Source: an uncultured Gallionellaceae bacterium
GTDB taxonomy: Bacteria; Pseudomonadota; Gammaproteobacteria; Burkholderiales; Gallionellaceae
DNA length: 64,000 nucleotides
Reading direction: 5' to 3'
Assembly (NCBI GenBank): GCA_903847155.1
Contig: CAINCU010000028.1
Coordinates: forward strand, 1-64,000
Within the stretch, counting starts at the first letter, position 1. Every line of letters begins with the position of its first letter. Below are positions 948-56,375 of the stretch, piece after piece. The notes below the pieces were generated by a model. The model was given only the letters and a program-made list of their open reading frames with translations. It was not told the DNA's origin and did no database searches. Position numbers and translations under genes: made by a program.

Positions 948-2012
948 CTAGCCGCCGATATAGGACATTTCGATTTTTCTCGCGGGATACTCGCTGGCCG
1001 CATGGCGTAGTTGCGAATAGCGGTCAGCACGCGTTTTCCAACTATCCGCCATCATGCGGGTTAGCGTACTGTCGTCCGCGCCATCGCGCAGCGGTGCGCG
1101 CAAATCCAGCCCGTCGTCCGCGAACAGGCAGTGATACAGTTTGCCGTCGGTGGCCAAGCGCACGCGGCTGCACTCGTGGCAGAACGCCTGCGTGACCGAA
1201 GCAATCACGCCGATCTCGCCGCCGCCATCGGCGTAACGCCAGCGCTCCACCACCTCGCCGCTGTAGTTTGGATCAAGCTGTTGCAGCGGGAAGTGCCCGC
1301 CAATATGGTCGAGAATGGCGCGTGCCGGAACGACATCTTCCATGCTCCAGCCGTTGCTGCTGCCGACATCCATGTATTCGATGAAGCGCAGCACGATGCC
1401 GCTGTGACGAAAGTGCTGTGCCATCGGCACGATCTCGTGCTCGTTCACACCGCGCTTGACCACCATGTTGACTTTCAGCGTGTCCAGACCTGCCGCCTGC
1501 GCTGCCGCGATACCTTGCAGCACATCGGCCACGGGTACATTCGTATCGCTCATGCGCTTGAACGTGGCATCGCTTAAACCATCCAGACTCACCGTCACGC
1601 GATTCAATCCGGCATCTTTTAGCGCCTGTGCTTTGCGCGCCAGCAGCACAGCGTTGGTGGTCATTGCGATTTCCGGCGCTTGGCCTTGCAGCGTTCGCAG
1701 GCATGCGAGTTTCTCGATGAGCCGTTCGATGCCGTGTCGCAGCAGCGGCTCGCCGCCGGTCAGCCGAATCTTGCTCACGCCCAAGCGCATGAACAGGCGC
1801 GCCAGACGTTCGATTTCCTCGAAGCTCAGTAATGCGCTGCGTGCCAGGTATGTGTGACTCTCGTCGAATGTCTTGCGCGGCATGCAGTAGGTGCAGCGCA
1901 GATTGCAGCGATCCGTGACCGAGATGCGCAGGTCGTGCAGCGGGCGCTGCAGGCTATCCAGTATTGGCAACGCATAATCGCGTTCCTCGTTCATGGCATG
2001 AGATTCCGCCAT
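948..2012 (-). CDS. moaA: GTP 3',8-cyclase MoaA (radical SAM)
   Basis: MoaA performs the first step of molybdenum cofactor synthesis, the radical-SAM cyclisation of GTP. The N-terminal 4Fe-4S site is CxxxCxxC (C36, C40, C43). A TGGEPLL motif follows at about residue 87. The second, GTP-binding cluster is visible as CHEC plus a further cysteine 13 residues on. The protein ends in the conserved Gly-Gly needed for activity. At 354 residues it is slightly long. A second ATG at 1994 (protein beginning [10 protein letters not shown]) is also possible; neither start has a convincing ribosome-binding site. It starts 6 bases after the tatC stop, within the same run of genes. Confidence 0.92.
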
Positions 2013-2018
2013 CGCATG

Positions 2019-2741
2019 CTACTTGGCAGCCGGTGGCCGCATTCTGGCGGCGACGATGACACCGACCTCATACAGCAGCCACATCGGTATCGCCAGCATG
2101 CATTGCGACACCACATCCGGCGGCGTCATGATGGCGCCGACGACGAATGCGCCGACGATGATATAGGGACGCGCTTCGCGCAATTTTTGGACATTCACCA
2201 CGCCCATGCGCACCAGCACGACGACCGCCACTGGAACCTGAAATGCGATGCCGAAAGCCATGAACATGCCCAGCACGAAGCTGAGATATTTGTCGATATC
2301 GGTCATCATAGCCACACCATGCGGTGTACTGGCGATGACGAATCTGAATACTGCCGGAAACACCAGGAAATAGGCGAAGGCCATGCCTGTCAAAAATAAC
2401 AGCAAGCTGGACAAAATAATGGGAAACAAGAAACGTTTTTCATGCGCATACAAACCGGGCGCAATGAATTTCCAAATTTGCAGCAGAATGAAAGGCAGGG
2501 TAATCAGAAATGCCGCCATCAGCGCCACCTTGACCGGCACGAAGAACGGCGTAGTGACATCGGTCGCTATCATTTGCGTGCCAAGCGGCAGTCTGGACAG
2601 CAGAGGCTGCGCCAGCAGCGTGTATAAATCCGAAGCCCAAGGCATCAGGCAAAGGAATACCAGCACCAGCGCGATCAATGAATGGGTAATGCGGGTGCGC
2701 AGCTCGAGGAGGTGCGTAATCAGGGTCTGGTTGGAATTCAC
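2019..2741 (-). CDS. tatC: Sec-independent protein translocase TatC
   Basis: TatC is the polytopic inner-membrane receptor that binds twin-arginine signal peptides with TatB. The 240-residue protein shows the expected six hydrophobic segments, the N-terminal LITHLLELRTRI motif, and the conserved FFVPVKVAL and FAFG-like regions (MAFGIAFQVPV). Its ATG overlaps the tatB stop by 4 bases (ATGA). It sits in a tatABC set directly upstream of moaA; many Tat substrates carry molybdenum cofactor, so the linkage makes functional sense. Confidence 0.95.
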   Translation of the reverse strand: MNSNQTLITHLLELRTRITHSLIALVLVFLCLMPWASDLYTLLAQPLLSRLPLGTQMIATDVTTPFFVPVKVALMAAFLITLPFILLQIWKFIAPGLYAHEKRFLFPIILSSLLLFLTGMAFAYFLVFPAVFRFVIASTPHGVAMMTDIDKYLSFVLGMFMAFGIAFQVPVAVVVLVRMGVVNVQKLREARPYIIVGAFVVGAIMTPPDVVSQCMLAIPMWLLYEVGVIVAARMRPPAAK

Positions 2742-3097
2742 GGCTTTTCGTTCGGCAAAGTGGGCGTGACTGCGGGTGTGGCGGATGGGTTCGGCTCACT
2801 CTGCGACTTTGCCACCTCGCGTTCCATCTGCTGCACTTCGTGGTTGACGTCGCTAGTGACCTGCTGCATCGAACGCTCCAGCGCATCGGCCTCGGCTTTG
2901 ATTTTGCGCTCCAGCGTACGCAGCTCCTCTACCTCCATGCTGCTGCTAACCTCCTGCTTGATCTGGTTGACATAACGCTGCAGCTTTCCCCACATTTTTC
3001 CCATTGTGCGCGCCACTTGCGGCAGACGCTCGGGCCCGATGACCACAAGCGCCACCACCATGATGACCGTTATTTCTCCGAAACTGATTTCGAACAT
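2738..3097 (-). CDS. tatB: Sec-independent protein translocase TatB
   Basis: TatB is a single-span membrane protein with a long amphipathic, charged region that forms the signal-peptide receptor with TatC. The protein starts MFEISFGEITVIMVVALVVI, followed by the diagnostic GPERLP motif and a coiled, Glu/Lys-rich helix to about residue 100, then a Pro-rich tail. I chose the second of two adjacent Met codons (3097 rather than 3100) because MF-I-F-E is the usual TatB start. It overlaps tatC by 4 bases. Confidence 0.93.
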   Translation of the reverse strand: MFEISFGEITVIMVVALVVIGPERLPQVARTMGKMWGKLQRYVNQIKQEVSSSMEVEELRTLERKIKAEADALERSMQQVTSDVNHEVQQMEREVAKSQSEPNPSATPAVTPTLPNEKP

Positions 3098-3181
3098 CAA
3101 TACCCCACTCCACCGCCAGACGGCAATAGCATCGAGCTATGAGTGCCTGACTGTTACTTCGCCGTCGATAACCAGCTTGCT

Positions 3182-3346
3182 CTAGCGCAACTGTTTGCTG
3201 GAGCTTTCATCGGATTTCGCGGCATCTTTGAAATTCTTGACTGCCGCACCCAGATCGCTGCCGATGTTGCGCAGCTTGCTGGTGCCAAATATCAACAATA
3301 CGACCAGCAACACAATCAACCAATGCCAAATACTGAATGAGCCCAT
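3182..3346 (-). CDS. tatA: Sec-independent protein translocase TatA (54 residues)
   Basis: This short gene lies between apbC and tatB. The translation starts [20 protein letters not shown] and continues [19 protein letters not shown], ending SSSKQLR. That is the TatA signature: a membrane helix after SIWHWLIV, the FG-x-KLR--G-DLG hinge and an amphipathic helix. TatA polymerises to form the translocation pore. At 54 residues it is at the short end for TatA (usually 60-90) because the charged tail is brief. A strong GGAGGA ribosome-binding site lies 4 bases before the ATG (3351-3356). The apbC stop is 15 bases upstream. Confidence 0.93.
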
Positions 3347-3361
3347 TGCTTCCTCCTAACG

Positions 3362-4453
3362 TTAGGTGTTCTGTACCACAATCTTGGGGAACGCCGCGCT
3401 GTGGTCTTGCGCCATCTCGCCAACCTTGACCGCGATGCGCCGTGCGATCTGCTTGTAATCCCGAGCCAGCTTGCCATCGGGATCGGCCACTACGGTAGGC
3501 TTGCCGGAGTCTGCCTGCACGCGGATGCGAATGTCCAGCGGCAGACTGCCGAGGAATTCGGTGTTGTAGTCGGCACACATTTTCTCGCCGCCGCCTGCGC
3601 CGAAGATATGCTCTTCATGGCCGCAATTGGAACAGATATGCGTACTCATATTTTCCACGATACCGACGATATTGATGCCGGTCTTTTCGAACATCTTGAG
3701 CCCCTTGCGCGCATCCAGCAGCGCAATGTCCTGCGGCGTAGTCACGATCACCGCGCCAGTGACAGGCACTTTTTGCGCCAGCGTAAGCTGGATGTCGCCG
3801 GTACCCGGCGGCAAGTCCACCACCAGATAATCGAGATTATCCCACCGTGTCTGGTGCAGCAATTGATCCAGCGCCTGTGTCACCATCGGGCCGCGCCAGA
3901 TCATCGGCGTGTCGGCATCAATGAGAAAACCGATGGACATGGCCTGCAAGCCGTGGCTCAGCATCGGCTGCATGCTCTTGCCATCAACTGATTCAGGCTG
4001 GCCGCTGATGCCCAACATGGTGGGTTGCGACGGGCCGTAGATGTCGGCATCCAGTATGCCGACGCGCGCGCCTTCGGCAGCCAGCGCCAGCGCCAGATTC
4101 ACCGCCGTCGTGCTCTTGCCGACGCCACCCTTGCCGCTGGCCACGGCGATGATGTTCTTCACGCCCTCAACCAGCTTCACGCCGCGCTGCACTGCATGCG
4201 GCACGACTTTGCTGCTTACGCTGGCGCTGACTTTGCCGACACCCGGCAGTGCGGATTTAAGGTGCGCTTCGACCAGCGCGCGAATCTCGTCCCATATGCT
4301 TTTTGCCGGATAGCCGAGAGAAATATCGAGAGAAACATCAGTGCCGCTAATTTTGATGTTCTTCACGGATTTGCCGCTGACGAAATCTTTTTTGGTGTTG
4401 GGATCGATCAGGTTCTTCAACGCATTTTGTACATCGACATCAGTGAAACTCAT
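3362..4453 (-). CDS. apbC: Iron-sulfur cluster carrier ATPase ApbC/Mrp
   Basis: A 363-residue Mrp/NBP35-type P-loop ATPase that binds and hands over Fe-S clusters in the cytoplasm. It has an N-terminal MIP18-like domain (about 1-85), a deviant Walker A motif GKGGVGKST around residue 110, and the CSNC cysteine pair that binds the bridging cluster near residue 282. The start at 4453 is chosen over an upstream in-frame start (4549) because AGGAG lies just before it and the MSFTDVDVQ start fits the family. It heads the tatABC-moaA-moeB-moaC run, and MoaA needs Fe-S clusters. Confidence 0.93.
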   Translation of the reverse strand: MSFTDVDVQNALKNLIDPNTKKDFVSGKSVKNIKISGTDVSLDISLGYPAKSIWDEIRALVEAHLKSALPGVGKVSASVSSKVVPHAVQRGVKLVEGVKNIIAVASGKGGVGKSTTAVNLALALAAEGARVGILDADIYGPSQPTMLGISGQPESVDGKSMQPMLSHGLQAMSIGFLIDADTPMIWRGPMVTQALDQLLHQTRWDNLDYLVVDLPPGTGDIQLTLAQKVPVTGAVIVTTPQDIALLDARKGLKMFEKTGINIVGIVENMSTHICSNCGHEEHIFGAGGGEKMCADYNTEFLGSLPLDIRIRVQADSGKPTVVADPDGKLARDYKQIARRIAVKVGEMAQDHSAAFPKIVVQNT

Positions 4454-4551
4454 CTGGCTCTCCTGCAATATATATCGTGGGGTGTGGATTCTAAACCAAA
4501 CAGGGCCTGCAAAGACATGACTGTATAAGCGGTCAATCTGGCCGACCAACT

Positions 4552-4622
4552 CGTCATTCCGGCCTGCGCCGGATAACCAGCGACTTGCCCGCTTGCAGGC
4601 TTAGTCGAATGGCTAGTAGTTC
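4552..4622. repeat. Two abutting dispersed intergenic repeats
   Basis: Bases 4552-4573 are a truncated copy of a CGTCATTCCGGC palindrome whose full form is at 22526-22553. Bases 4573-4622 start with ATAACCAGCGACTTG and end with TAGTCGAATGGCTAGT; a clear second copy is at 23086-23141. The outer arms are partly self-complementary, so it can fold as a hairpin. The gap holds no gene. Confidence 0.7.
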
Positions 4623-4652
4623 CACCAATAACGGGCTAATAAGTTTTTCGAG

Positions 4653-4682
4653 ATAAAAAACCCCGCCGATCAAGGCGGGGTT
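4653..4682 (-). terminator. Intrinsic terminator of the electron-transfer gene cluster
   Basis: On the minus strand a 9-base-pair stem (AACCCCGCC, loop TTGATC, GGCGGGGTT) is followed by a run of T. It lies 38 bases after the tetraheme cytochrome stop and insulates the cluster from apbC. This is a textbook Rho-independent terminator. Confidence 0.9.
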
Positions 4683-4720
4683 CAGGTGATGGCAACGCAA
4701 TACTGCGTTACAACATCTTA

Positions 4721-5317
4721 TTACTGCTCATCAGGATCCACGTACTCTTTCGGCAGTTTGTGGGCAATACCCTTATGGCAGTCGATGCAAGTCAGGCCAT
4801 CGTCTTTCGCCTTCATGTGCTTGTTGAAGATGGTCTGCTTTTGTTTCTCCCCGCTCATGGCGTCGAAATTATGGCAGTTTAGGCATTCACGCGAACCGGA
4901 AGCCTTCATGCGCGCCCATTCGTGTGTAGCCAACTCCATGCGGTGCGCTTCGAATTTCTCCGGCGTATCCACAAAGCCAGTGACCTTGCCCCAAAGTTCA
5001 TTGCTTGCCTGAATCTTGCGCAGCATCTTGTGACCCCAATCCCTAGGCACATGGCAATCAGGACAGATTGCGCGCACGCCGGTTCGGTTCGAATAGTGAA
5101 TGGTTTGCTTGTATTCCTGATACACGGTGTCACGCATTTCATGACAGCCAATACAGAACTCCAGCCTGTTTGTCTGTTCCAGCGCGGTATTGAAGCCACC
5201 CCAGAAAATGATACCGGCGAAAAAACCCACTACCAGCAATCCCAGTAGGGAATATTTTGCACTTGGTGTTCTGAGCATAGTCCATGTGCGCTTCAGCATG
5301 CCTGGTTTGTTATCCAT
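4721..5317 (-). CDS. cymA: Tetraheme c-type cytochrome, NapC/NirT/CymA family (inner-membrane quinol dehydrogenase)
   Basis: A 198-residue membrane-anchored cytochrome with one transmembrane helix (about 23-43) and a periplasmic domain with four CXXCH heme sites (C55, C85, C145, C177). This is the NapC/NirT layout. CymA of Shewanella and its counterpart in the Sideroxydans mto cluster link the quinone pool to periplasmic cytochromes. Here it probably exchanges electrons between the quinone pool and the decaheme/monoheme carriers encoded upstream; the direction (Fe(II) oxidation or metal reduction) cannot be read from the sequence. It is the last gene before the terminator at 4653-4682, and another terminator-like hairpin precedes it at 5370-5397. 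Confidence 0.9.
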   Translation of the reverse strand: MDNKPGMLKRTWTMLRTPSAKYSLLGLLVVGFFAGIIFWGGFNTALEQTNRLEFCIGCHEMRDTVYQEYKQTIHYSNRTGVRAICPDCHVPRDWGHKMLRKIQASNELWGKVTGFVDTPEKFEAHRMELATHEWARMKASGSRECLNCHNFDAMSGEKQKQTIFNKHMKAKDDGLTCIDCHKGIAHKLPKEYVDPDEQ

Positions 5318-5369
5318 AATTTCCTCGTTCGTTTAAATGAAAGTGCTACAACTTTTACTAGTCCAGGTG

Positions 5370-5397
5370 AAAAAAACGGGGCACAATTTCGTCCCCG
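5370..5397 (-). terminator. Terminator-like hairpin between the helix-hairpin-helix gene and cymA
   Basis: On the minus strand a CGGGG/CCCCG stem with an 11-base loop is followed directly by seven T residues. It lies 73 bases after the stop at 5471 and 52 bases before the cymA ATG. The stem is short, so it may act as a partial terminator that lowers cymA expression or separates two transcripts. Confidence 0.6.
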
Positions 5398-5470
5398 CCA
5401 AACTACCTCGCTCTGGTGAGGTTTCTATTTACTGCATAAATAGTTTGCATATCCCAAGAAGAACAAGCAC

Positions 5471-5926
5471 TTACTTCTTCTTGTTCTGCGGTTTGGCTTG
5501 CGCCATGTCTTTGGCGTTCTTTTGTTTGTCATTCGCCATGATTTTATCAATATCCTTCTTTGTCATTTTGCAGACAATCAGCCCTTTCAACTTCTCGTAG
5601 GCTGGCATAGGGATAATGTTGTCGAGGGCAAGTGCTGTTTTACTGCCAAAAGGACGGCCCGCAATAATTTTGTCGGCCTCTGCATCACTGATGCCGGGAA
5701 GCTTCTTCAATTCATCTTTTGTTGCACTGTTGATATCGACCAGCTTGATTCTGGCTGCATGCTTATGCTTGACACCAACTTTACTTTTTGCGTTGCTCGG
5801 ACCCACACCGGCCTTGGTTGCAGCTGGTTGCGGAGCATCCGTTTTAGTTCCAACTGCCAAGGACAGGCCGCTATTGAGAAGCAGCACAGTTGCAGCCAGC
5901 ACTACGGATAGAGAACGGTATTTCAT
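5471..5926 (-). CDS. Secreted helix-hairpin-helix (ComEA-like) protein inside the electron-transfer cluster
   Basis: A 151-residue protein with a cleavable signal peptide (about 1-24, ending GLSLAVG), an Ala/Lys-rich linker, and a ComEA-type helix-hairpin-helix module at about 63-118 (VDINSATKDELKKLPGISD, then a KIIAGRPF stretch). The tail is very Lys-rich. ComEA-type domains bind DNA without sequence preference, usually in the periplasm during DNA uptake. No other competence gene is nearby. It lies between the surface decaheme cytochrome gene and cymA, on the same strand, which suggests an unknown accessory role in surface electron transfer or extracellular DNA binding. Function is inferred from fold only. 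Confidence 0.75.
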   Translation of the reverse strand: MKYRSLSVVLAATVLLLNSGLSLAVGTKTDAPQPAATKAGVGPSNAKSKVGVKHKHAARIKLVDINSATKDELKKLPGISDAEADKIIAGRPFGSKTALALDNIIPMPAYEKLKGLIVCKMTKKDIDKIMANDKQKNAKDMAQAKPQNKKK

Positions 5927-5989
5927 AAAACTCCTTGTGAATCAGTTTGTAGCTACTTTGCCAGCTTATTTATCTAGTCTGGTATTAGA

Positions 5990-6019
5990 TAACCCGAATA
6001 TGTTGCCACATCCGGGTTA
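5990..6019 (-). other. Stem-loop between the surface decaheme gene and the helix-hairpin-helix gene
   Basis: TAACCCG and CGGGTTA arms enclose a 16-base loop that itself contains a short ATGTG/CATAT pairing. No T tract follows, so it is more likely a transcript-processing or stability element than a terminator. Confidence 0.45.
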
Positions 6020-6084
6020 GCCTTTAAGAAGTGGCCAGCAAACGAGGCACGATACTTTGTACCCCGCTTGATGTCACGTGGTGC

Positions 6085-8994
6085 TTATTTACTATTATGA
6101 ACCGCTGCTACGTCAGCAACCTTGCCTTTGGCATGACATACCAGGCAAGTCTCATTGTTGGTGAGGCTGGCTGCGCCACGAGGCGAGTAAATCACGCCAC
6201 CGTTTTGCGTCATGTGCGACTTGGCCAAGCTCGTATCGTGGCAAGCAAAGCATGCCGATGCGATTGGCGAATTCACCAGCGTAGCAGTATCTGCAGGAAC
6301 GATTTCACCACCAGCAGCGGCCACATGTTGAGCCACGGTGACTCCTGCTGCAGTCTTATACGAGGCAACAACCGCACCTGCAGGGGTAAAGGTGTAACCA
6401 TTACCGTAGTTCGTGCCAACGGTGATGTAAGGCGAGTTCTTGAAGCTAGCTGCAGCCGTACCTGTGGAAGTAGTGCTCCACAACAGGTTAGCTTGCACCC
6501 CAGTACCGCCAGTTGCAGCGAAGTTTACTGTATCCGGCAGGTGACACTGGTTACAGTTCTTCAACTGGCCAGGATACTGCAGAGTCGAGTAGTTGTCGGT
6601 TGCAGAAACACCGGCCCAGGTAAAGCCCACTGTGCGCTTGGCCACACCTGCTTCGCCACCGGCGTGGATACCGTGGATATAGGTGCTGGAGTCTGCGGAC
6701 CAACCGTTGCTGGTGCGATTACCGTTGTGGCAGATGTTGCATGCCGTCGGGTCGTTGCGGGCACCACCATGGAACTCCGGCGATGTACCAAGCTGGTCGT
6801 GGCAGGAGTTGCACAGCTTCGCATCAGTAATCACGCGACGTGCCGTGAAACCTGTGGCGACCGCTTTTGCCAGTACCGACTTGATAATCACGCCACCCGA
6901 TGCTGAAGTGTTGGGATTAACGGCCACGTTGGCTGCAACGTAGGCGTAGTCCGCCACACCCTTCTGGGTAAAGGTACCAATCATTGCCGCCGTAGCCATT
7001 TTTGCGCTTGCAGGGATTACAATCGGTGACGGATTGACACAGTTGCCAGTTATCGCACTCGAACCCGTATTTTGCAAGCAGGTTGCTGTAACAGGCTGTC
7101 CGACCAGATCACCGGTCAAGGTTGCTGTCCAAGTGCCAGCGCCATCGGATGTCAGAGTACCCGCATTCGGCGAGGTACCGGCTGCCACCAGAAGATTGGT
7201 CAGCGAAGCACTTTGGTAGGCGTTGAAATCGGCCGGTGCAGCGATACCATCCTGCGGCACGGAGTAAGCCATGTACAGGCTCGGACCGCTTGCAAATCCA
7301 GGAATCGGCTCGAAGTTAGGATCAACCACTTGCGCGCCAGTCTGTGCGTTTGTGACCAGAGCCGGTGTAGCCAGCGCTGTCACCAGAGTTCCGTCCTTGG
7401 TGATCTGGAACTTGATCACAGGCTGCCTACTGGCGTTCACTGATGCACTGACGATCTTGTAAGTGATGGTGGAAACCGTATGAGTCGTATGGTTCTTCCA
7501 TTCACCAGCTACAGGATTGTGCGGAGTGGCAGTATTCGTCTGGTGAACCAGAGCGATGGCTGCTGCAGAGTGGCAACTGCCGCTACCGCAACCGCTGTCG
7601 TCAGCCTGCAAACCACCCATGTGACCCGATTGAGTTGTGCCGACTGCAACTGCTGCTGCAACGTCTGCATCCCTATCAGCCAATGTTGCGCCAAGACCGG
7701 TGGCAAAGTCGATACCATCGTGACATGCACCGCAAGCCAGCCTGCTTGGCTTGTTCTTCCAGTTATCACCATCAGTCGTCGGGTGGGCTGCAGTGGCCGA
7801 ATTATCATGGCACTTGGTGCAGTTGGCCGGAGATTGCGGCAATTTCTTCTCGTTGAACAGGCCTTCGGATGCAGCATTGAAGAAGTAGCCCGTTTTAACC
7901 AGTTCCTCACCCATGTGCATCTTGTGGATCAGGTTGGGGTAGTTGCCGATTGCTCTGCCATTCATGATAGAAGTTGTCGGACGAGTGGTTCCGTTCAACA
8001 CATAACCGTTGCTACCGGCTACGCTGGTTGCTTCGCCTGAGTTAAAGGTATATTTGATCTGGTCGGTATGGCAAGTCACGCACAGTCTCGGGTTATTGCG
8101 ACCGATCGTGTCTCCTGGGGAGCTGGTAGTACTCCAGTGACCGATACCTTTGCCTGAGTGGCATTCGGTGCAGGAATCCTTAATGACGATGTCGCGCGTT
8201 ACAGTGGGTGTTCCACCGTTTGGCACGAAGTCATAACCCATATTAAAGTCCTTCACCAATGGAACTGAAGGAACGACAGTTACGCCGTCCGGGGTTGCGG
8301 AACCGGTACCAGGTTGCGAACCGTGGATAATAACTCCGAGGCGGTGTGTCAAAGTCGGATCGAAGGTAACATCACCCAAGTCGGCTTTTAGGGAAGGTGC
8401 CGTGTCGTACTGGCCGGTCAAGCCAGCAACAATGTTGGCAGACTGTGTGATATCACGGAAGAAAGTGTACTGATAAGAACCATCGCCGTTGTCAACCAGG
8501 GTACCTTGGTTGTCAGCGCTTGGGAATGTTGCTCCCCAGGTTACACCACCGTTAACTACGGCGCCTGCTGTTCCAGTTGCTTTTGGTGTAGTTATCAGAT
8601 AGTTGACCCATTTGCTCGGGCCAACGGCTGGTTGTACCAGCTTTGCCAGTGTAAAACTGAAGAGATAATTTGTGTGAGGAAGTCCGGCTGCAGCATTGGC
8701 TGCGGTCAGGGTTTGTCCGCCCAATCCAGCCACAGCATTGCCGTCTTGGTCAGTCACGGTGAACTTCACCACAGGCTTGCCTGTGCCGATCGTCACGGAG
8801 ACGCTGGCGGGATCAATCGTGGGCACGAGTGCCTTAAATTCAGCAGCCGACAAGTTAGCGACATTCGTCAAAACCTTGCCTGGAGCACCCGGGGCGCCTG
8901 CAGTACCGGCAGCGCCATCACTACCGCCGCCGCAGCCTGCAAGTGCAGAAATCATTAGGGCTAACAGCCCAAATCGAATCAATTTATTTCTCAT
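6085..8994 (-). CDS. Outer-surface decaheme c-type cytochrome lipoprotein, OmcA/MtrC family
   Basis: A 969-residue lipoprotein: lipobox LAGC with C21, then a short collagen-like Gly/Ala/Pro stretch. Heme sites fall in two pentaheme groups separated by beta-rich segments, as in MtrC/OmcA: C275, C305, C392, C421 and an unusual CX4CH at C469-H475, then C728, C752, C814, C915 and C950. That is nine CXXCH plus one CX4CH. It is much longer than Shewanella MtrC (about 670) or OmcA (about 735). The four-domain order (beta, heme, beta, heme) is inferred from heme spacing. It would sit outside the outer membrane on the MtrA-MtrB conduit encoded upstream and exchange electrons with minerals or iron. The ribosome-binding site is GAGGGAG. 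The start is clear. Confidence 0.92.
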   Translation of the reverse strand: MRNKLIRFGLLALMISALAGCGGGSDGAAGTAGAPGAPGKVLTNVANLSAAEFKALVPTIDPASVSVTIGTGKPVVKFTVTDQDGNAVAGLGGQTLTAANAAAGLPHTNYLFSFTLAKLVQPAVGPSKWVNYLITTPKATGTAGAVVNGGVTWGATFPSADNQGTLVDNGDGSYQYTFFRDITQSANIVAGLTGQYDTAPSLKADLGDVTFDPTLTHRLGVIIHGSQPGTGSATPDGVTVVPSVPLVKDFNMGYDFVPNGGTPTVTRDIVIKDSCTECHSGKGIGHWSTTSSPGDTIGRNNPRLCVTCHTDQIKYTFNSGEATSVAGSNGYVLNGTTRPTTSIMNGRAIGNYPNLIHKMHMGEELVKTGYFFNAASEGLFNEKKLPQSPANCTKCHDNSATAAHPTTDGDNWKNKPSRLACGACHDGIDFATGLGATLADRDADVAAAVAVGTTQSGHMGGLQADDSGCGSGSCHSAAAIALVHQTNTATPHNPVAGEWKNHTTHTVSTITYKIVSASVNASRQPVIKFQITKDGTLVTALATPALVTNAQTGAQVVDPNFEPIPGFASGPSLYMAYSVPQDGIAAPADFNAYQSASLTNLLVAAGTSPNAGTLTSDGAGTWTATLTGDLVGQPVTATCLQNTGSSAITGNCVNPSPIVIPASAKMATAAMIGTFTQKGVADYAYVAANVAVNPNTSASGGVIIKSVLAKAVATGFTARRVITDAKLCNSCHDQLGTSPEFHGGARNDPTACNICHNGNRTSNGWSADSSTYIHGIHAGGEAGVAKRTVGFTWAGVSATDNYSTLQYPGQLKNCNQCHLPDTVNFAATGGTGVQANLLWSTTSTGTAAASFKNSPYITVGTNYGNGYTFTPAGAVVASYKTAAGVTVAQHVAAAGGEIVPADTATLVNSPIASACFACHDTSLAKSHMTQNGGVIYSPRGAASLTNNETCLVCHAKGKVADVAAVHNSK

Positions 8995-9110
8995 TTTCTT
9001 TCTCCCTCGCTTTCAAAATAACAACAACGGTAACCTCGTGACATCCACTTGGCATCTAAAAAGTTGTTCCTGGTTCTTCACTAACTTCATCTCCTGATTA
9101 TTACCTGTAC

Positions 9111-11246
9111 TTAGAACTGATAAATGTAGCTTGCTCCCAAGAACACAGCTTTCTGGTTCGGCTGCATCGATACGGTCGTGTTGTCGGAATAGGTAAATGA
9201 ATCCCAAGTCCACTCATTAGTCTTTGCGTTCTGGTAAACCATGTCGGCACGAATGTAAGCGTTAGTCTGCAATGCATATTTGCCATAAAGTTTGAGGCTG
9301 ATCACACGATTAGTCACATCGGGCAACCCTCCACCGACTATCGGAGTTCCTGAAGCCATGCTTTGCTGATAGCTATTGTTGTCATTCACATACAACAAAT
9401 TGCCGCCCAGCTCGAGCTTGCTGCTTGGATTACCGACTACACCAACCCCAAAATTGGTATTGGTGTTTTTCAGTTCGGCCAAGTAACCGGTGCTGTAGTC
9501 TACGTGCTGGGTCTGAGTGCTCTGGCTCACATAGCCCGTCATCTTCCAGAAATCTGTCACTTTCAGCTCTGCATCTACACCATAGGAATTCATCCCGGTA
9601 TCACGTAAGCCTTTAGCAGTCGGCCCGGTATAAGTATCCTTGCCATTTTCCAGCAGGAACTGCAGCGATAACTTGTTGGTCGGCGTCCAATCCCCGGATA
9701 GCTTTACCTTGTCACGCTTGCGATCCATCATCGTCATCGGGTAGGTGCCGACAGGGTTAGCAGGGCCGATGTTCAGCCAGCTTCCGCCATCGCGTTTGCT
9801 TTGCACGTAACTGACAACCGCATTGATCGTTTCAGTCATGGAACGCTTCAACTCGGCGCGATAACCGACCTCATGCGTATCTTCACGCAGTCCGGTTAAT
9901 GGATTTAGCGCGGCATTCAACACCGCTGCCGTACTTACCGGAGCATCACGATGCTCCGACTCATAATCGACCCCCAAGGTTGCCCGCAGGTTTTGCGGCA
10001 ATGCATAACCCGCCTCCAGTTTGCCGTTGAGCTTCTTTGACGAATGCGTATCGTTCGTATATGCACCGCTATATGCAGCAAGCGGTGTTTTATCGTCTTT
10101 GCTTGCGTAATGCACATTTCCCAACAGGGAGAGCTTCTCTATGGGTCGAGCTGTCAAACCAAACTGGGCAACGTTGCTATCCACCACACCGGCCAAATTA
10201 TTGACTCCGCTCGGCATCCCTGTCAGCCCCATACTGCTGAAAGTCTCATTTTGCGTGGCGTGGGTATAAGCGTATTTGAAAGTTGAGTGTGTCGTCGGTG
10301 TGAAGGCGTAGTGGCCGGAGACATAAACCTGATTCGCCTGATTGTCCGGTGGCAGTGCCACGGGTTGCTGCAGCAAGCCGGCCAAGATACTGCCGGGGGC
10401 AGCGGTGGTAGCCAGAGTCGAGCCGTCAGGGTTGTATAAGTTCCAACTTGCCAGCGTTGAATTCAACGAACCATTAGCGTTGCTGTAGAACGAACCATAA
10501 TATCCCCCGCTCAGCAGGAGTTTATCGCCCGAAAAATTCAGTCTGGCTTCGATTTGTTTGGTTGTGGAGTCAATGGGTTCCGGCAACATCAGCATTGCCG
10601 CAGACAGGCTGGAGCAGGTGATTGAAGACATGCCTGCTGGCGTACAGGCGATGCCTGTGCCAGACAAACGCGCTCCCTTTTTGTCTTCATTTTTGGCAGT
10701 TACTTCGAGCATTAGATTGGAAGTCAACCATTTCTCGCCACTAAGACTGATCCCCGAGCGCTTGATTTCCAGATTCAAATCCGTCCCAGCTCCCGGCGCA
10801 GCCAAACTCGATACTGTAAGTGTGCTTGTTCCCACACCTTGCACGCCGGTATTGATGGTGCGCGGATCGTGGCGAACCAATTCGCTGTACCCTATAGAAT
10901 ATTTCCAATCGCCCTGTTTATTCTGCGAGAAACTCAAATCGCGGTTATCCAAACCAAGATTGTTGCCTTGGCTAGTTGTCCACAACCCTGTCGCATCGTT
11001 GCGCTTGACGATATTATAGTCCAGCAGCAGGTTGCTATTATTATCACGCAAGCCACTGTATTGATTAAATATCGTTCTATCTTTGCTGTCGCCAGAGGCG
11101 GCACTTAGCCCGACGCTGACTGTACTGTGCGGGTTTACTAATTGCGCGACATCATCCTCTTCGGCGTGCGCCAAACCAAAGGCCGCGAGCACAGACAAGG
11201 CCAGAATTGTTCGACTGAATCCAAATTGCTTTCTTGGGTTTTTCAT
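9111..11246 (-). CDS. mtoB: Outer-membrane beta-barrel porin of the MtrB/PioB/MtoB family
   Basis: A 711-residue protein with a signal peptide (about 1-28, ending GLAHA), alternating hydrophobic beta-strand patterns throughout, and a terminal aromatic residue (ASYIYQF) as expected for an outer-membrane barrel. MtrB-type barrels hold the decaheme MtrA/MtoA so that electrons can cross the outer membrane. The N-terminal CXXC seen in Shewanella MtrB is absent, as in MtoB/PioB-type members; the only cysteines I see are near residues 200-215. It lies 24 bases after the decaheme mtoA and 116 bases before the surface decaheme gene. Confidence 0.9.
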   Translation of the reverse strand: MKNPRKQFGFSRTILALSVLAAFGLAHAEEDDVAQLVNPHSTVSVGLSAASGDSKDRTIFNQYSGLRDNNSNLLLDYNIVKRNDATGLWTTSQGNNLGLDNRDLSFSQNKQGDWKYSIGYSELVRHDPRTINTGVQGVGTSTLTVSSLAAPGAGTDLNLEIKRSGISLSGEKWLTSNLMLEVTAKNEDKKGARLSGTGIACTPAGMSSITCSSLSAAMLMLPEPIDSTTKQIEARLNFSGDKLLLSGGYYGSFYSNANGSLNSTLASWNLYNPDGSTLATTAAPGSILAGLLQQPVALPPDNQANQVYVSGHYAFTPTTHSTFKYAYTHATQNETFSSMGLTGMPSGVNNLAGVVDSNVAQFGLTARPIEKLSLLGNVHYASKDDKTPLAAYSGAYTNDTHSSKKLNGKLEAGYALPQNLRATLGVDYESEHRDAPVSTAAVLNAALNPLTGLREDTHEVGYRAELKRSMTETINAVVSYVQSKRDGGSWLNIGPANPVGTYPMTMMDRKRDKVKLSGDWTPTNKLSLQFLLENGKDTYTGPTAKGLRDTGMNSYGVDAELKVTDFWKMTGYVSQSTQTQHVDYSTGYLAELKNTNTNFGVGVVGNPSSKLELGGNLLYVNDNNSYQQSMASGTPIVGGGLPDVTNRVISLKLYGKYALQTNAYIRADMVYQNAKTNEWTWDSFTYSDNTTVSMQPNQKAVFLGASYIYQF

Positions 11247-11270
11247 GATCTTTTCCCGGTTATCATCGTT

Positions 11271-12299
11271 TTAACGGAACAGGTTCTGCGGAGCTGGATT
11301 CACCAAGCTCGGATTGTTGCTGCCGTGTATCTGGGTGTGACAGTTCACGCAACCTCTGCCCTGAGTGATGGCTGAACCATTCCACCATCCCAGACTGTTG
11401 GGGGAACCAGCCGTCTGACTGCTCAACGAAGGCTGCACTGTTGTATGCGGCGTATGGCACGATTGGCACAGGAAAGGCGGACGCATCTTCAGCAAGCTTT
11501 CGGCGCTGGTTCCATGCGGGTTATGGCATGTCGTGCAATCTTCACCGACAGGCTCGTGTGCATACACAAACGGGCCGCGTTTCTCCATATGGCAGGTGTA
11601 GCAGACGTCATTTATGCTATCGCGCTTCATGAGTTTAGGACCGATAGAGCCATGCGGATTGTGGCAATCGGAGCATGTCATTTTGCCCTCTGGAATCGGG
11701 TGATGCGAAAGCCGGTTGATTTGTGCGCGCTGATCCTTGTGGCAGGTAAAGCAGACTTCCGTCTGGGTAGCCCTGTCACGCACTTTGTCGCGTGGGGAGT
11801 GAATGTTATGGCACTGAGTGCATGTTATATCCTGGCTCTGGTGGACACTTCCCTCCCAGTGCGAACGGTTTGCATCCTTCTTGTGGCATGCGAGGCACTT
11901 ACCACTCTGCTCTTCTGCGCTATTCGGTGCGAAGTCGCCTGATGTTCCTCTTCTGACCCCGAAACGAACATCGGGAGCTGCACGACCCTTTTGAGCTGGA
12001 TCACCATGCAAGTGCTTATCGCTCTCGCCGTGGCAGGATTGGCAGTTAGGAGTGCGCGGATCCGCCCTGTTGCCATGTTTGGTCTGATAGAGCGCCAGAA
12101 TCGGCTTTGTCTCGCTTTCATCATGGCATCGCGTACAGATGGCATCCTTTTTCATAGACAAGGCTATGGCATCCGCAGTAGCCGTTGCACTGGCAGCCTG
12201 ATTCTGTTGAACAGGTGCATCTTCAGCCAATGCGGCCGGTACCCAAGCCAGGCATCCGATAAGTACACCCAATATCCAATTCTTTTGTAGGAAATTCAT
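11271..12299 (-). CDS. mtoA: Periplasmic decaheme c-type cytochrome MtoA/MtrA/PioA
   Basis: A 342-residue protein with a signal peptide (about 1-25, ending PAALA) and ten CXXCH sites from C55 to the C-terminus, including two CxxCHNPHG repeats typical of the MtrA/DmsE family. It would form the heme wire inside the MtoB barrel. Sideroxydans MtoA is the characterised Fe(II)-oxidising relative; Shewanella MtrA works in the reducing direction. It is followed 24 bases later by the barrel gene. Length fits MtrA (about 330). Confidence 0.95.
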   Translation of the reverse strand: MNFLQKNWILGVLIGCLAWVPAALAEDAPVQQNQAASATATADAIALSMKKDAICTRCHDESETKPILALYQTKHGNRADPRTPNCQSCHGESDKHLHGDPAQKGRAAPDVRFGVRRGTSGDFAPNSAEEQSGKCLACHKKDANRSHWEGSVHQSQDITCTQCHNIHSPRDKVRDRATQTEVCFTCHKDQRAQINRLSHHPIPEGKMTCSDCHNPHGSIGPKLMKRDSINDVCYTCHMEKRGPFVYAHEPVGEDCTTCHNPHGTSAESLLKMRPPFLCQSCHTPHTTVQPSLSSQTAGSPNSLGWWNGSAITQGRGCVNCHTQIHGSNNPSLVNPAPQNLFR

Positions 12300-12328
12300 T
12301 TTTTTTCGCCCAAATATTATAGTTGTAC

Positions 12329-12457
12329 TTAGTTGGATAAGCCCTGAACGCTTTTCATCGCTACCGTATCTTCAGTAATCACAGGTGCCGAAAATGAAGG
12401 AACAATAACGCCGGAAATCACACCGGTTAGAATATTGGCACTTGCTTTTCGGCACAT
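12329..12457 (-). CDS. Possible small secreted peptide (42 residues)
   Basis: A short ATG-initiated frame between the monoheme and decaheme genes. The peptide starts MCRKASANILTGVISGVIVP, then SFSA, and ends in a short polar tail, which resembles a signal peptide with an AxA-like cleavage point. The ribosome-binding site is weak (CAGGG 8 bases upstream). A 9-base inverted repeat (TGCCGAAAA at 12386-12394 and TTTTCGGCA at 12446-12454) overlaps it, so this stretch may instead be a structured spacer. Comparison with related clusters would decide. Confidence 0.3.
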   Translation of the reverse strand: MCRKASANILTGVISGVIVPSFSAPVITEDTVAMKSVQGLSN

Positions 12458-12505
12458 TTGTTTTTCCCTGTTTTATGGAAATAATGGTAATTTTCTCGCC
12501 AAGAC

Positions 12506-12859
12506 TTAGTTCGACAAGATCCAGTCCACTAGATTTTTGATGGCTTCAGGTGAGGCTTTGCCTTGCATATTCTTGTGCTCTTCCTCATGACCATCGGGGA
12601 ACTTGGCTTTTTCGCCTGAAGTAAGGTGGTGAATCAAATGCGCCTCGGCATCGGCTTTACCGCGATATTTCGCGGCTACTTCTGTATAAGCCGGGCCGTC
12701 TTTGGGCTTGGAAATACCGTGGCATTTAAAGCAGCTGTTTTCACGAGCCATCATTTTTGCTGCTTCCACATCGACTGCGGCGGACGCATTGATGGAAAAG
12801 ACCAATAGAATTGCGGCGGAAACGCCGAGTAGTATTGGGGTTTGAACTTGGTGTTTCAT
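12506..12859 (-). CDS. mtoD: Monoheme class I cytochrome c, MtoD-like
   Basis: A 117-residue periplasmic cytochrome: signal peptide (about 1-27, ending SINASA), one heme site CFKCH near residue 43, and a likely axial Met in HKNMQGKASPEA near residue 98. MtoD in Sideroxydans is a small monoheme cytochrome encoded next to mtoA and is thought to shuttle electrons across the periplasm. Here it is the first gene of the cluster, just downstream of the candidate promoter, with AGGAG at 12866-12870. The H-G-I-x-K-P-K-D-G-P-A-Y stretch resembles cytochrome c-552-like proteins. Confidence 0.88.
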   Translation of the reverse strand: MKHQVQTPILLGVSAAILLVFSINASAAVDVEAAKMMARENSCFKCHGISKPKDGPAYTEVAAKYRGKADAEAHLIHHLTSGEKAKFPDGHEEEHKNMQGKASPEAIKNLVDWILSN

Positions 12860-13096: not shown

Positions 13097-14512
13097 ATGC
13101 TGACAGCCCTGAAACAAATTTTCAGCGGTATGAGTTTTTCGCGCCAGTTCATGCTGGCCATCATTTTAATTCTCGCAGTCAGCATGTTCGTCATCGGCAA
13201 CTGGATTGGAAATCAGATAGAAGCCAACTCGGTAAACCGCGCTGCGGCCATTTCGTCTGTTTATCTGGAAAGCATCTCTGCGGCGCACCTGCAAGACTGG
13301 ACCATCGGCGGAATAGTGGATAGCAAGACGCATGAGGAGCTGGACAGCGTTTTCGTCACCGGGCCACTGCACCGCGAGGTACTCCGTTTCAAGCTTTGGG
13401 ATACCGGCGGGCGTATCGATTATTGTAACGACCATACGCAAATCGGCCATCAATATCAGATCAAGGGCCTGCTAGCTGCGGCTTTCGCCGGTTCGGTGCA
13501 GGCGCGCATCAGCAATCTCGATGATTCCGACAACCAGGCGGAACAAATACACTGGCAGCAGCTGCTTGAGGTCTATGTGCCGCTGCGTTCCGCCGAAAAT
13601 AACAAAGTGGTTGCGGTCGCCGAATTTTTTCTGTCGGTGGATAACCTGAAGCATGACATTCTTGCCGCCCAAAAACGCAGTTGGGCACTGGTCGCGCTTT
13701 CAACACTCGCCACTTACCTACTATTGTATAGTCTGGTACGCCGAGCCAACACCACTATCGTAGATCAGCAACGAGATCTGAAAAACCAACTCAAGCAGCT
13801 TCGCGCCGCACTCGACGAAAATGACCGCATGCGCGAGCGGCTGCGCGAGGCGGGTGTAAGCACGACCACGCTCAACGAAGAGTTTTTGATCCGTATCGCC
13901 GCCGATCTGCACGACGGGCCAGCGCAAATGATTGCCTTCGCCCTGATGCGCTTCGACGAGTTTGCCGCGGGCTGTCATGCCTGTGCGGCCACGTCGAATG
14001 GTACTTCCAAGGATCTCAGTAGCATCCAGGGTGCACTGCACGCTTCGCTACGCGATGTGCGCAAAATTTCTTCCGGACTGGCGATTCCGGGCATAGTCAA
14101 ACTATCCCTTGCCGATACTGCACGGCGCGCGGTGCGCGATTTCGAGCGTATGTCCGGGCTGGCGGTTCAGACAGAAATCAATGATGTACAAGACAATTCC
14201 CCGCTTTCGGTCAGGATTACGGTATATCGGCTGCTGCAGGAATCGCTAACCAACTGTTGGCGACACGCGCCCAAGGGCGCACCTCAGGTGGAAGTGCAAC
14301 AATTCGACGACGAAGTGCTGGTAACAATCACCGACCATGGCGCCGGTTTCGATCCTCAGGCGGCTGCCGTGGGTGGACGGCTGGGGCTTGCCTTTATGCG
14401 CGAACGTGTGCGCCTGCTCGGCGGTATCTTTGAGATTGATTCTGCTCCCGGTCGCGGCACCGTTATCCGCGCCCGCCTTCCCTTGTCCACAAATGAGATG
14501 ATCCATGCCTAA
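13097..14512 (+). CDS. NarX/NreB-type sensor histidine kinase (HisKA_3)
   Basis: A 471-residue membrane kinase. TM1 is at about 20-37 and TM2 at about 195-213, with a roughly 155-residue periplasmic sensor between; a HAMP-like/coiled region follows. The HisKA_3 H-box is DLHDGPAQ with H272, and the HATPase domain ends with the ITDHGAGFD and RLGLAFMRERV motifs. An unusual CHAC motif (C293-C296) sits just after the H-box. The stimulus is not evident. It overlaps the response regulator gene by 8 bases and is divergent from the mto cluster, so it is the best candidate controller of it. Confidence 0.88.
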   Translation: MLTALKQIFSGMSFSRQFMLAIILILAVSMFVIGNWIGNQIEANSVNRAAAISSVYLESISAAHLQDWTIGGIVDSKTHEELDSVFVTGPLHREVLRFKLWDTGGRIDYCNDHTQIGHQYQIKGLLAAAFAGSVQARISNLDDSDNQAEQIHWQQLLEVYVPLRSAENNKVVAVAEFFLSVDNLKHDILAAQKRSWALVALSTLATYLLLYSLVRRANTTIVDQQRDLKNQLKQLRAALDENDRMRERLREAGVSTTTLNEEFLIRIAADLHDGPAQMIAFALMRFDEFAAGCHACAATSNGTSKDLSSIQGALHASLRDVRKISSGLAIPGIVKLSLADTARRAVRDFERMSGLAVQTEINDVQDNSPLSVRITVYRLLQESLTNCWRHAPKGAPQVEVQQFDDEVLVTITDHGAGFDPQAAAVGGRLGLAFMRERVRLLGGIFEIDSAPGRGTVIRARLPLSTNEMIHA

Positions 14513-15167
14513 TCCGATTCGTATTTTGCTCGCCGACGACCATCCCCTTTTCCGCGAGGGAGTCGCGCATTCGCTTAGCGTCGATCCAGAGTTTGATGTC
14601 GTTGCTCAAGCCAACAGTGGCGAGGAAGCAGTGGAAATGGCGCTACGGCTGCATCCCGACATCGTGTTACTGGATGTGTCGATGGTCGGCATGGGCGGTA
14701 TAGCGGCAGCGGCAAAGATCGCGACCAGCACTCCAACAATGCGCATCATGATGCTCACCGTCTCGGAAAACCGTGAAAATCTGATGGCAGCCCTCAAGGC
14801 CGGCGCGCATGGCTATATATTAAAGGGGGTATCCGCCAGCGAGTTGCGCGCCATCACGCGCCGCGTGGCTGGCGGCGAAGCCTATGTCACCCCGGCCCTT
14901 GCCGCTGATATGCTGACCGAATTCTCGCAACCCACCCCTGTCGATTCTTTTTCCGAACTGACGGCGCGCGAAAATAAGATCCTCAAACTTCTCAGCCAAG
15001 GGCTTACCAACCGGGAAATCGGCGAACAAATGTATATTTCCGAGAAAACGGTCAAGCATTACATGACAAGTATTTTGCAAAAACTGCATGTGCGCTCACG
15101 CACCGAGGCTGCGTTGATCGCCATGCAACACGGCATTATGGGCAATCAATTTGCGGACAAAAAATAA
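14505..15167 (+). CDS. NarL/FixJ-family response regulator
   Basis: A 220-residue regulator: receiver domain (about 5-125) with acidic pair D11/D12, phosphoacceptor D57 (DIVLLDVSM) and the conserved K in ILKG near 107; LuxR-type helix-turn-helix at about 150-210 (LTARENKILKLLSQGLTNRE, then SEKTVKHYM). It partners the HisKA_3 kinase encoded just upstream with an 8-base overlap. Targets are unknown; the divergent mto cluster is the obvious candidate. Confidence 0.92.
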   Translation: MPNPIRILLADDHPLFREGVAHSLSVDPEFDVVAQANSGEEAVEMALRLHPDIVLLDVSMVGMGGIAAAAKIATSTPTMRIMMLTVSENRENLMAALKAGAHGYILKGVSASELRAITRRVAGGEAYVTPALAADMLTEFSQPTPVDSFSELTARENKILKLLSQGLTNREIGEQMYISEKTVKHYMTSILQKLHVRSRTEAALIAMQHGIMGNQFADKK

Positions 15168-25260: not shown

Positions 25261-25523
25261 CAGTTGTCATCCTCATGCACGTCGAACTCGCGGTCCAACT
25301 GGTCCATGCGGTACGCGTAATAGCCAACCAGAATCACATAGACCAGCAACGCGCCCTGCGCGTCAATGTAAAACGGGAACGGAAAGCCAAGGATGGTGAT
25401 GGACTGCAATTCGCGCGCATACCAACCGATAACAAAAGTGGCCACAAACCAGATCACCAACAGCCACGCGGTCAGTCGGCTATTTTTTTTCCAGTACTGC
25501 TTGTGTTTCTCGGTGAGTTGCAT
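25260..25523 (-). CDS. Sodium:solute symporter small subunit (DUF4212)
   Basis: An 87-residue protein with two membrane helices (about 16-36 and 50-70), starting MQLTEKHKQYWKKN, the conserved DUF4212 start. It is always found just upstream of VC_2705-type symporters and is taken to be their accessory subunit. The stop and the large-subunit start share one base. Confidence 0.88.
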   Translation of the reverse strand: MQLTEKHKQYWKKNSRLTAWLLVIWFVATFVIGWYARELQSITILGFPFPFYIDAQGALLVYVILVGYYAYRMDQLDREFDVHEDDN

Positions 25524-25721
25524 GATTTCCTTGTTTGAGGCGCGCGGTTACAAGCGTTGGAGTATGCCAAGCTGCGATGAAGTCTGTAAACAAAAAACCT
25601 CATCCCCAATGCAGTCGCCCGTCAGCTTGGACAATTACCCTCTTCCACTTAGAATAGCCGCGAGCTGGCGGCGCGATGCCCCATCGTGCATCACGCCCCA
25701 TGACAGTAACTTAAGCCCAAA

Positions 25722-25740
25722 TACTTACAAGGTACTTACA
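25722..25740 (+). promoter_or_regulatory. Direct repeat TACTTACA x2 before the response regulator gene
   Basis: TACTTACA occurs at 25722-25729 and 25733-25740, an 11-base spacing close to one helical turn, with a weaker TAACTTAA at 25707. OmpR-family regulators usually bind such direct repeats. The site lies directly before the start codon, so autoregulation or control of the divergent symporter genes is plausible. Confidence 0.45.
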
Positions 25741-25745
25741 CGTCA

Positions 25746-26429: not shown

Positions 26430-26487
26430 CGCAGCACCGCCCGCGATGCCAGCAACCCGCCCGACAGGCAGGATATGAATAAACGTC

Positions 26488-51513: not shown

Positions 51514-51514
<1 letters not shown>
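50051..51514 (-). CDS. gltD: Glutamate synthase (NADPH) small subunit
   Basis: Transfers electrons from NADPH to the large subunit for glutamate formation. The 487-residue protein has an N-terminal cysteine region ([23 protein letters not shown]) for 4Fe-4S clusters, then two dinucleotide folds ([15 protein letters not shown] near 150; [11 protein letters not shown] near 290). The start shares one base with the gltB stop (TAATG). Confidence 0.95.
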
Positions 51515-56193
<4,679 letters not shown>

Positions 56194-56203
56194 CCAATAA
56201 TAC

Positions 56204-56220
56204 GGCGGCTTTCTGCCGCC
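56204..56220 (-). other. Hairpin just upstream of gltB
   Basis: GGCGGC, loop, GCCGCC: a six-base-pair GC stem 10 bases before the ATG at 56193. It could affect translation initiation or be a chance feature. Confidence 0.35.
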
Positions 56221-56375
56221 TTCCAAGAATTTTATGCGAAAGGGCGGCGATGTTACCTTTTCCGACCAATCCGGGCAACATGCGAATAGGGTTGAGCAAG
56301 AGAGGGGCTTTCCCAAAGTTGCGTAGATGGCTTACAACTCCAGACCAAACCAAGATGTTCCATCGAACTCCCTAA

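Follow-up and report, generated by a model that had tools for sequence, protein, structure and literature searches.

Layout of the cluster and its relatives

The DNA analysed here, referred to throughout as the window, is a stretch of 64,000 nucleotides from an uncultured Gallionellaceae bacterium (G000:C28:1-64000; host genome 3.08 Mb in 76 contigs), and it carries a gene cluster for a putative electron conduit across the cell envelope. Six open frames are confirmed on the minus strand, in the order mtoD, mtoA, mtoB, mtrC, a gene for a small helix-hairpin-helix (HhH) protein, and cymA (Table 1). The cluster combines the hallmarks of two known systems. As in Mto loci, an MtoD-like monohaem cytochrome adjoins a decahaem MtoA and an MtrB/PioB barrel, with a CymA/ImoA tetrahaem cytochrome in the cluster; as in MtrCAB loci, an OmcA/MtrC-family decahaem protein with a lipobox adjoins genes of the MtrA and MtrB families. 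The scores of MtoA, MtoB and MtrC lie so far above curated cut-offs that chance is excluded as their cause; CymA falls under the cut-off of the NCBIfam model napC_nirT (297.4 against 310.6 bits). The original prediction of an mto-type gene order with an OmcA/MtrC decahaem between mtoB and cymA is borne out, all frames being open where they had been placed. Its statement that Sideroxydans-type mto clusters encode no surface MtrC at this position is true of locus L127, taken to be that of Sideroxydans lithotrophicus ES-1, where nothing MtrC-like lies between mtoB and cymA.

Table 1. Features of the window cluster and of the second copy on contig C54; C54 positions are those within L217 (G000:C54:50001-70000).
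Feature	Position	Strand	Details
mtoD, periplasmic monohaem cytochrome	12506..12859	-	117 aa; 1 CXXCH; best PDB match 4xxl, E=1.2e-56
decayed mtoD2 between mtoD and mtoA	12329..12457	-	42 codons, haem site lost; compared with intact mtoD2 on G000:C54
mtoA, DmsE-family decahaem	11271..12299	-	342 aa; 10 CXXCH; TIGR03508 283.5 bits (cut-off 192.2)
mtoB, MtrB/PioB outer-membrane barrel	9111..11246	-	711 aa; TIGR03509 343.1 bits (cut-off 240)
mtrC, OmcA/MtrC-family decahaem lipoprotein	6085..8994	-	969 aa; TIGR03507 401.2 bits (cut-off 209.3)
HhH protein, likely secreted	5471..5926	-	151 aa; PF12836 36.6 bits (cut-off 27)
stretch 5' of cymA, common to C54 copy	5370..5423	-	hairpin and T-run read by eye
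cymA/imoA, NapC/NirT-family quinone-linked tetrahaem cytochrome	4721..5317	-	198 aa; 4 CXXCH; PF03264 247.6 bits (cut-off 24.1)
histidine kinase, divergent from cluster	13097-14512	+	Pfam
LuxR-type response regulator, divergent from cluster	14505-15167	+	Pfam
C54 mtoD	8350-8700 of L217		
C54 mtoD2, intact	8748-9104 of L217		
C54 mtoA, start only	9155-9376 of L217		73 codons; first haem motif reads CTRCY
C54 cymA	9487-10083 of L217		91% identical to window CymA

MtrC had been described as a decahaem surface lipoprotein of 969 residues. Its length stands, as does the lipobox (LAGC, residues 18-21, followed by Gly and then a short Gly-X-Y stretch), and nine CXXCH motifs plus one CX4CH (CGSGSCH, residue 469) give ten likely haems, the tenth site being not CXXCH but a form that, among 55 MtrC rows, occurs only in those of the window and G351. 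A position at the cell surface is suggested by the lipobox and the family. The MtrC/MtrF N-terminal Pfam domain scores below its cut-off (20.4 against 27.7), and the MtrF structure 3pmq is matched at E=3.7e-21; the AlphaFold2 (AF2) model, with a mean predicted local distance difference test score (pLDDT) of 28, is useless. The Gly-X-Y stretch is collagen-like, spans about residues 25-38, recurs with varying length in L010, L172, L187, L200 and others, and is perhaps a flexible stalk. A plasmid search gave no match to the window MtrC. The hairpin upstream of cymA is absent from the list of a terminator scan whose count was near chance level.

The host belongs to the same genus group as S. lithotrophicus ES-1, within a family group of 158 searched genomes in 15 genus groups. 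A member of the same genus group, G417, encodes an MtoD identical over 117 residues to structure 4xxl, which we take to be the MtoD of ES-1, and G417 (locus L127) is read as ES-1. TIGR03507 exceeded its cut-off in 6 of 158 genomes of the family, 3 of 300 of the order and 10 of 369 of the class (the window's genome counted in each), and in 16 of 299 genomes of family f49 and 5 of 117 of f43 (the centre genome counted in each); the surveyed genomes of the order, the class and f49 are draws from larger groups. TIGR03509 exceeded its cut-off in 33 of the 158 family genomes. Neighbourhoods were read for 36 clusters in 33 family genomes besides the window's (32 above the TIGR03509 cut-off, plus G305, below it and cut by a contig end), and mtrC lies within 6 kb of the cluster in five. 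The original prediction had supposed that this six-gene order would not be found in many described mto clusters, and in part it does recur: it is complete and identical in G323, while in G305 mtoB, placed at the contig end, is followed by mtrC-HhH-cymA, contig ends interrupt mtrC in G351 and G378, and G321 has the first five genes, mtoD-mtoA-mtoB-mtrC-HhH, with a second mtrC and no cymA before the contig ends. In another family, G1139 has mtoD-mtoA-mtoB-mtrC-HhH followed by a 656-aa MtoC-kind protein with nine haem motifs. The genome of G321 encodes five OmcA/MtrC-family frames on three contigs (L117, L119, L120).

The novelty of an MtrC in an mto cluster mostly fails in the light of earlier work. 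In the parts covered, Hoover 2023 (PMC10734462) reports MtrC in seven Gallionella/Sideroxydans metagenome-assembled genomes (MAGs), with a model labelled MtoAB+MtrC and the function left open. Baker 2022 (PMC8805035), likewise in the parts covered, describes the spread of MtrCAB horizontally and in modules, mtoD and mtoC adjoining mtrCAB in the betaproteobacterial Group 4, and, in Niveibacterium and Aquincola, a conserved gene for an HhH protein behind one type of MtrC. He 2017 (PMC5566968), in the parts covered, found neither MtrC nor OmcA among the iron oxidisers that it surveyed, and names the nonahaem MtoC of ES-2. The window cluster is a real and informative example of an already described kind; it adds to prior knowledge a mosaic structure, a decayed second copy and a rule linking the HhH gene to one type of MtrC.

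Ancestry of the chassis and the conduit

Identity to relatives varies among the genes of the cluster. Compared with ES-1, MtoD is 74% identical, CymA 80%, the histidine kinase 72%, the response regulator 86%, MtoA 55% and MtoB 32%; compared with G323, the figures are MtoD 74%, CymA 73%, MtoA 76% (its nearest relative), MtoB 69%, MtrC 51% and HhH 58%. In the MtoB tree (65 rows), the window MtoB joins five MtrC-bearing Gallionellaceae (support 95, starred), whereas 18 classic rows, including ES-1 and the genome taken as ES-2, form a separate clade (100, starred), and forcing it to group with these 18 costs 192.5 log units in the approximately unbiased (AU) test (p=1.3e-79). It also lies within a clade of 23 rows (99, starred) that holds the MtoB of MtrCAB clusters from other families. 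The original expectation of a full MtrCAB-like conduit together with MtoD and CymA holds for the parts present, but MtoB is of another clade, and a classic mto cluster with one extra gene is ruled out by the MtoB tree and AU test.

CymA of the window and of the C54 copy are sisters (98/99, starred) inside 13 Gallionellaceae Mto CymA (100/100, starred), and a common group with the CymA of G323 and G305 is rejected, at p=0.017 when the C54 copy is left out and at 0.005 when it is included. The nearest relatives of MtrC are not the copies that accompany the sisters of its MtoB but copies from the order Burkholderiales outside Gallionellaceae (L010 63%, L172 62%, L200 60%; clade support 87/91), and its placement in a clade with four Gallionellaceae MtrC (p=0.019) or with two of them (p=0.029) is rejected. 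The MtoD trees are poorly resolved; in them MtoD joins G323 and G326 with weak support (94/89, not starred). The p values for proteins other than MtoB are moderate, and they come from tests of several groups, some of them picked after the trees were seen. The MtoB, MtoA and MtrC trees come from a short search, the last including 54 of 55 rows, with one row cut at a contig end omitted; the CymA and MtoD trees with the C54 copy comprise Gallionellaceae rows (omitting L125 for CymA, and L125, L112 and L101 for MtoD), and their test rows were named singly. Judged from these sequences, the cluster is a mosaic in which the chassis (MtoD, CymA and the two-component system) and the conduit (MtoB and MtrC) differ in their nearest kin, and the outer-membrane wire rather clearly has a history different from that of the rest of the iron-oxidation set.

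The chromosomal site also bears on the origin of the chassis. A divergent two-component pair precedes mtoD in ES-1, G446 and G437, its kinase end is also present in G434, and in the neighbourhoods read it is not beside the clusters of G441 or G323. Because its place is conserved, the pair may well regulate the cluster. The ES-1 genes beyond imoA (symporter, response regulator and kinase; 86-92%) are found in the window at 23200-27882, which is 18-23 kb from cymA and on the opposite side of the cluster; the window and ES-1 mto sites are the same chromosomal neighbourhood, rearranged. The chassis thus looks native, since ES-1-group mto loci hold the nearest, or similar, counterparts of MtoD, CymA and the two-component pair, and ES-1 flank genes lie nearby. 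Elsewhere in the window are two very long open frames on the minus strand, at 51514-56316 (1600 aa) and 56665-62985 (2106 aa).

Alternatively, the whole cluster may have been transferred as one block from a G323-like Gallionellaceae lineage, with no exchange inside a resident locus. The identical order of the six genes in G323, its high identity in MtoA and MtoB and the weak grouping of MtoD would suit such a transfer; the rejected CymA grouping, an MtrC not nearest to that of G323, and a two-component pair of ES-1-group type that was not found beside the G323 cluster would not, and we consider a block transfer unlikely.

A second copy of the locus, on contig C54, adds to this history. The match between the two copies stops at window position 12106 and resumes at 5423, so that C54 is without most of mtoA and the places of mtoB, mtrC and the HhH gene. 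Because the remaining start of the C54 mtoA is nearest to that of the window itself (69% over 64 residues), the two clusters are probably duplicates within one genome. Their decay is opposite, mtoD2 being degraded in the window copy and intact on C54, and the whole host genome holds one MtrB/PioB-family match.

A gene for a Cyc2-like monohaem protein (L217 6633-7958, plus strand) ends 391 bases upstream of the C54 mtoD, with a sigma-54-type regulator and a histidine kinase upstream of it. The protein has AMPNFARKY, CAMCH, PKL, 441 aa counted from the ATG and a C-terminal Phe, in agreement with the published Cyc2 criteria (AXPXFAR[Q/K][T/Y], CXXCH, PXL and at least 365 aa; PMC8406198). A search of the family's remaining 157 genomes, confined to hits at E<=1e-20, gave none, so that the protein is not close kin to the Cyc2 usual in Gallionellaceae; the plasmid search gave no match either. 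An operon of the cyc2-like gene and mtoD is unsupported, a 13-pair terminator-like hairpin lying between them.

The HhH protein beside one MtrC clade

The distribution of the HhH gene was counted in loci found via MtrC or MtoB, and not via the HhH gene itself. In the MtrC tree, a single clade of 22 (99, starred) holds every MtrC that has an HhH gene within 1200 bases downstream. The gene is present in 20 of 21 assessable members, the exception being L121 (G423), and L118 is cut by a contig end; it is present in none of the 30 assessable among the 32 other rows (two rows, the second copy in L117 and L195, have less than 450 bases of room). The HhH-linked MtrC clade occurs with several MtoB types or with none. 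In the open-access literature searched, Baker 2022 (PMC8805035), as far as covered, was the only paper that turned up for HhH proteins together with mtrC and decahaem cytochromes; widening the subject to extracellular electron transfer added one essay on biofilm origins.

A signal peptide is likely, judged by eye, the HhH protein is basic (isoelectric point 9.6-11.2 in all 20 frames as called, of which some are over-long), and the AF2 core is of fair confidence, with a pLDDT of about 73-87 over residues 61-130. The ten best Foldseek matches of this core are ComEA-type chains in two cases and chain U of photosystem II in eight (E 0.017 to 1.1), and the best phmmer matches are ComEA, weakly (E 0.013 and 0.042). 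The protein is far below the comE(A) family cut-off (26.6 against 152.35 bits), and no PsbU family is among its Pfam hits. ComEA and PsbU are, like the HhH protein, small and extracytoplasmic with an HhH core, the similarity being weak. PsbU is an extrinsic subunit of photosystem II located near cytochrome c550, and a structural role for the HhH protein is therefore as plausible as DNA binding. The proposed role is that of an accessory of this MtrC type, perhaps an extrinsic structural subunit like PsbU in photosystem II or a DNA-binding tether.

A role unrelated to electron transfer, with the HhH protein a mere DNA-binding passenger of the ComEA kind, is also conceivable, although we lean away from it. 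Consistent with a passenger, the best structural and sequence matches are ComEA, the nearest relative of the HhH core is in G323 (75%) while the window MtrC is nearest to L010, and the correlation between HhH and MtrC distances is weak (r=0.20, p=0.076 for 20 pairs; r=0.29, p=0.011 for the 18 pairs with MtoB), a result that leaves a tightly co-evolving mtrC-HhH unit unsupported. Such a passenger would, however, have to lie directly downstream of nearly every assessable MtrC of one clade and of none outside it, and to score far below the comE cut-off. The strict adjacency provides a specific and cheap hypothesis on an unstudied accessory.

Proposed electron flow and comparison with known systems

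We think it fairly probable that the cluster encodes a trans-envelope electron conduit of iron-oxidising ES-1-group Gallionellaceae, exchanged into an mto chassis and working inward. Electrons from Fe(II), probably mineral-bound, would be taken up by MtrC at the surface, led across the outer membrane by MtoA within the MtoB barrel, and handed by a periplasmic carrier to the quinone pool at CymA/ImoA. An exchange of the conduit inside a pre-existing mto locus is suggested by the grouping of MtoB with MtrC-bearing clusters and by the C54 copy, which misses the same stretch, from mtoA to the HhH gene, between mtoD/mtoD2 and cymA. Also in favour of the overall reading are the PRK-family gene (phosphoribulokinase or uridine kinase family) at 28008-28898 and the Cyc2-like gene on C54.

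Several observations weigh against this interpretation. The phylogenies called for by the original prediction set MtoB outside the classic clade but do not separate MtoA; its best tree puts the window outside the ES-1/ES-2 clade, and the AU test does not reject a grouping with classic MtoA (p=0.305). For CymA, the trees and test neither show nor reject a common group with four loci of the ES-1 group (p=0.348), and the MtoD and CymA of G323 are similar enough (74% and 73%) that the whole cluster could have come as one piece from such a relative. Direction is no easier to read, as MtoA/MtrA sequences do not reveal it according to the parts of Hoover 2023 (PMC10734462) covered. Models for menD and MqnC found nothing above cut-off in the host genome, but 0 of the 15 genomes searched, mtrCAB-bearing members of other families included, exceeded the cut-offs (controls exceeded the cut-off in 7 and 2 of 14), so that these missing markers do not discriminate direction and were rejected as proof of it. 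Finally, in ES-1 it is PmcA, not MtoD, that binds MtoA and ImoA (PMC13390432, in the part covered), and PmcA has no match in the host genome, while 11 of 16 Gallionellaceae genomes searched have one; this weakens the periplasmic link of the proposed route.

Other cytochrome genes were noted beside these. The ES-1 gene taken as pmcA is a monohaem gene beside imoA (L127 6315-6731, minus strand), and pmcA in G446 and G323 is far from the mto cluster or on another contig. In the host, L219 (G000:C14:25001-44000) encodes at 6515-9459, on the plus strand and away from mtoAB, two MtoD-like monohaem cytochromes and a 660-aa nine-haem MtoC-kind protein, which gives the host both CymA-type and MtoC-type inner-membrane partners. 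L220 (G000:C31:60001-79000) has at 1761-12756, minus strand, one after another, a molybdopterin oxidoreductase, further frames, a 7-haem protein of 806 aa, a tetrahaem protein resembling CymA (54% to the ImoA of ES-1) and a dihaem cytochrome. L221 (G000:C49:15001-34000) has at 9555-11345, plus strand, an octahaem cytochrome that TIGR04315 (563 bits) places in the tetrathionate reductase family.

A conduit working mainly outward or in both directions, with MtrC reducing Fe(III)/Mn(IV) minerals at low oxygen and CymA serving as a quinol oxidase as in Shewanella, appears improbable to us. The MtrC family and the known function of MtrCAB would favour it, as would two sources in the parts covered: Rhodoferax MIZ03, which has mtrABC, both oxidises and reduces iron (PMC8552755), and ES-1 ImoA can stand in for CymA in Shewanella as quinol oxidase (PMC13390432). 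Against it, chassis and regulator alike belong to the locus of an iron oxidiser, and no menaquinone marker exceeded its cut-off, a weak argument given that the other mtrCAB hosts searched were also without one. The original prediction fairly asked whether the host oxidises metals, reduces them or does both; the covered part of Hoover 2023 (PMC10734462) raises the question of oxidation versus metal reduction for MtrC in iron oxidisers too, and states that an isolate is needed.

A tentative model, of which we are far from confident, would have a fixed mto chassis (regulator, MtoD and CymA) with a socket between mtoD and cymA for exchangeable conduits, the MtrC tip being swapped apart from the MtoAB wire and the HhH protein marking and serving one MtrC type. 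The locus would have been duplicated and its copies would have lost opposite parts, one keeping the conduit and losing mtoD2, the other keeping the carriers and losing the conduit, beside a Cyc2-like porin-cytochrome that could feed them. Since the same chassis can be compared with and without MtrC, this conduit, in which MtrC is combined with the regulator, MtoD and ImoA of the most thoroughly studied Mto pathway, offers a natural test of what MtrC does in iron oxidisers.

Among the closest known systems is the mto cluster of ES-1, which resembles the window in the order and strand of mtoD-mtoA-mtoB-cymA/imoA and in the divergent kinase-regulator pair; the window differs in an MtoB of another clade, in the inserted mtrC and HhH genes and in lacking PmcA, both next to cymA and in the rest of the genome. 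The MAGs of Hoover 2023 (PMC10734462), compared by description only, have the same combination of MtoAB with an OmcA/MtrC decahaem in the same family, while the HhH protein, the conduit exchange and the decayed copy are not mentioned in the parts covered. Group 4 of Baker 2022 (PMC8805035), as described in the parts covered, shares with the window MtrCAB with Mto-type carriers, an HhH gene after one MtrC type, and MtrC and MtrAB of different groups within one cluster; the window is set apart by its gene order A-B-C and by the ES-1-type CymA, MtoD and regulator that surround its conduit.

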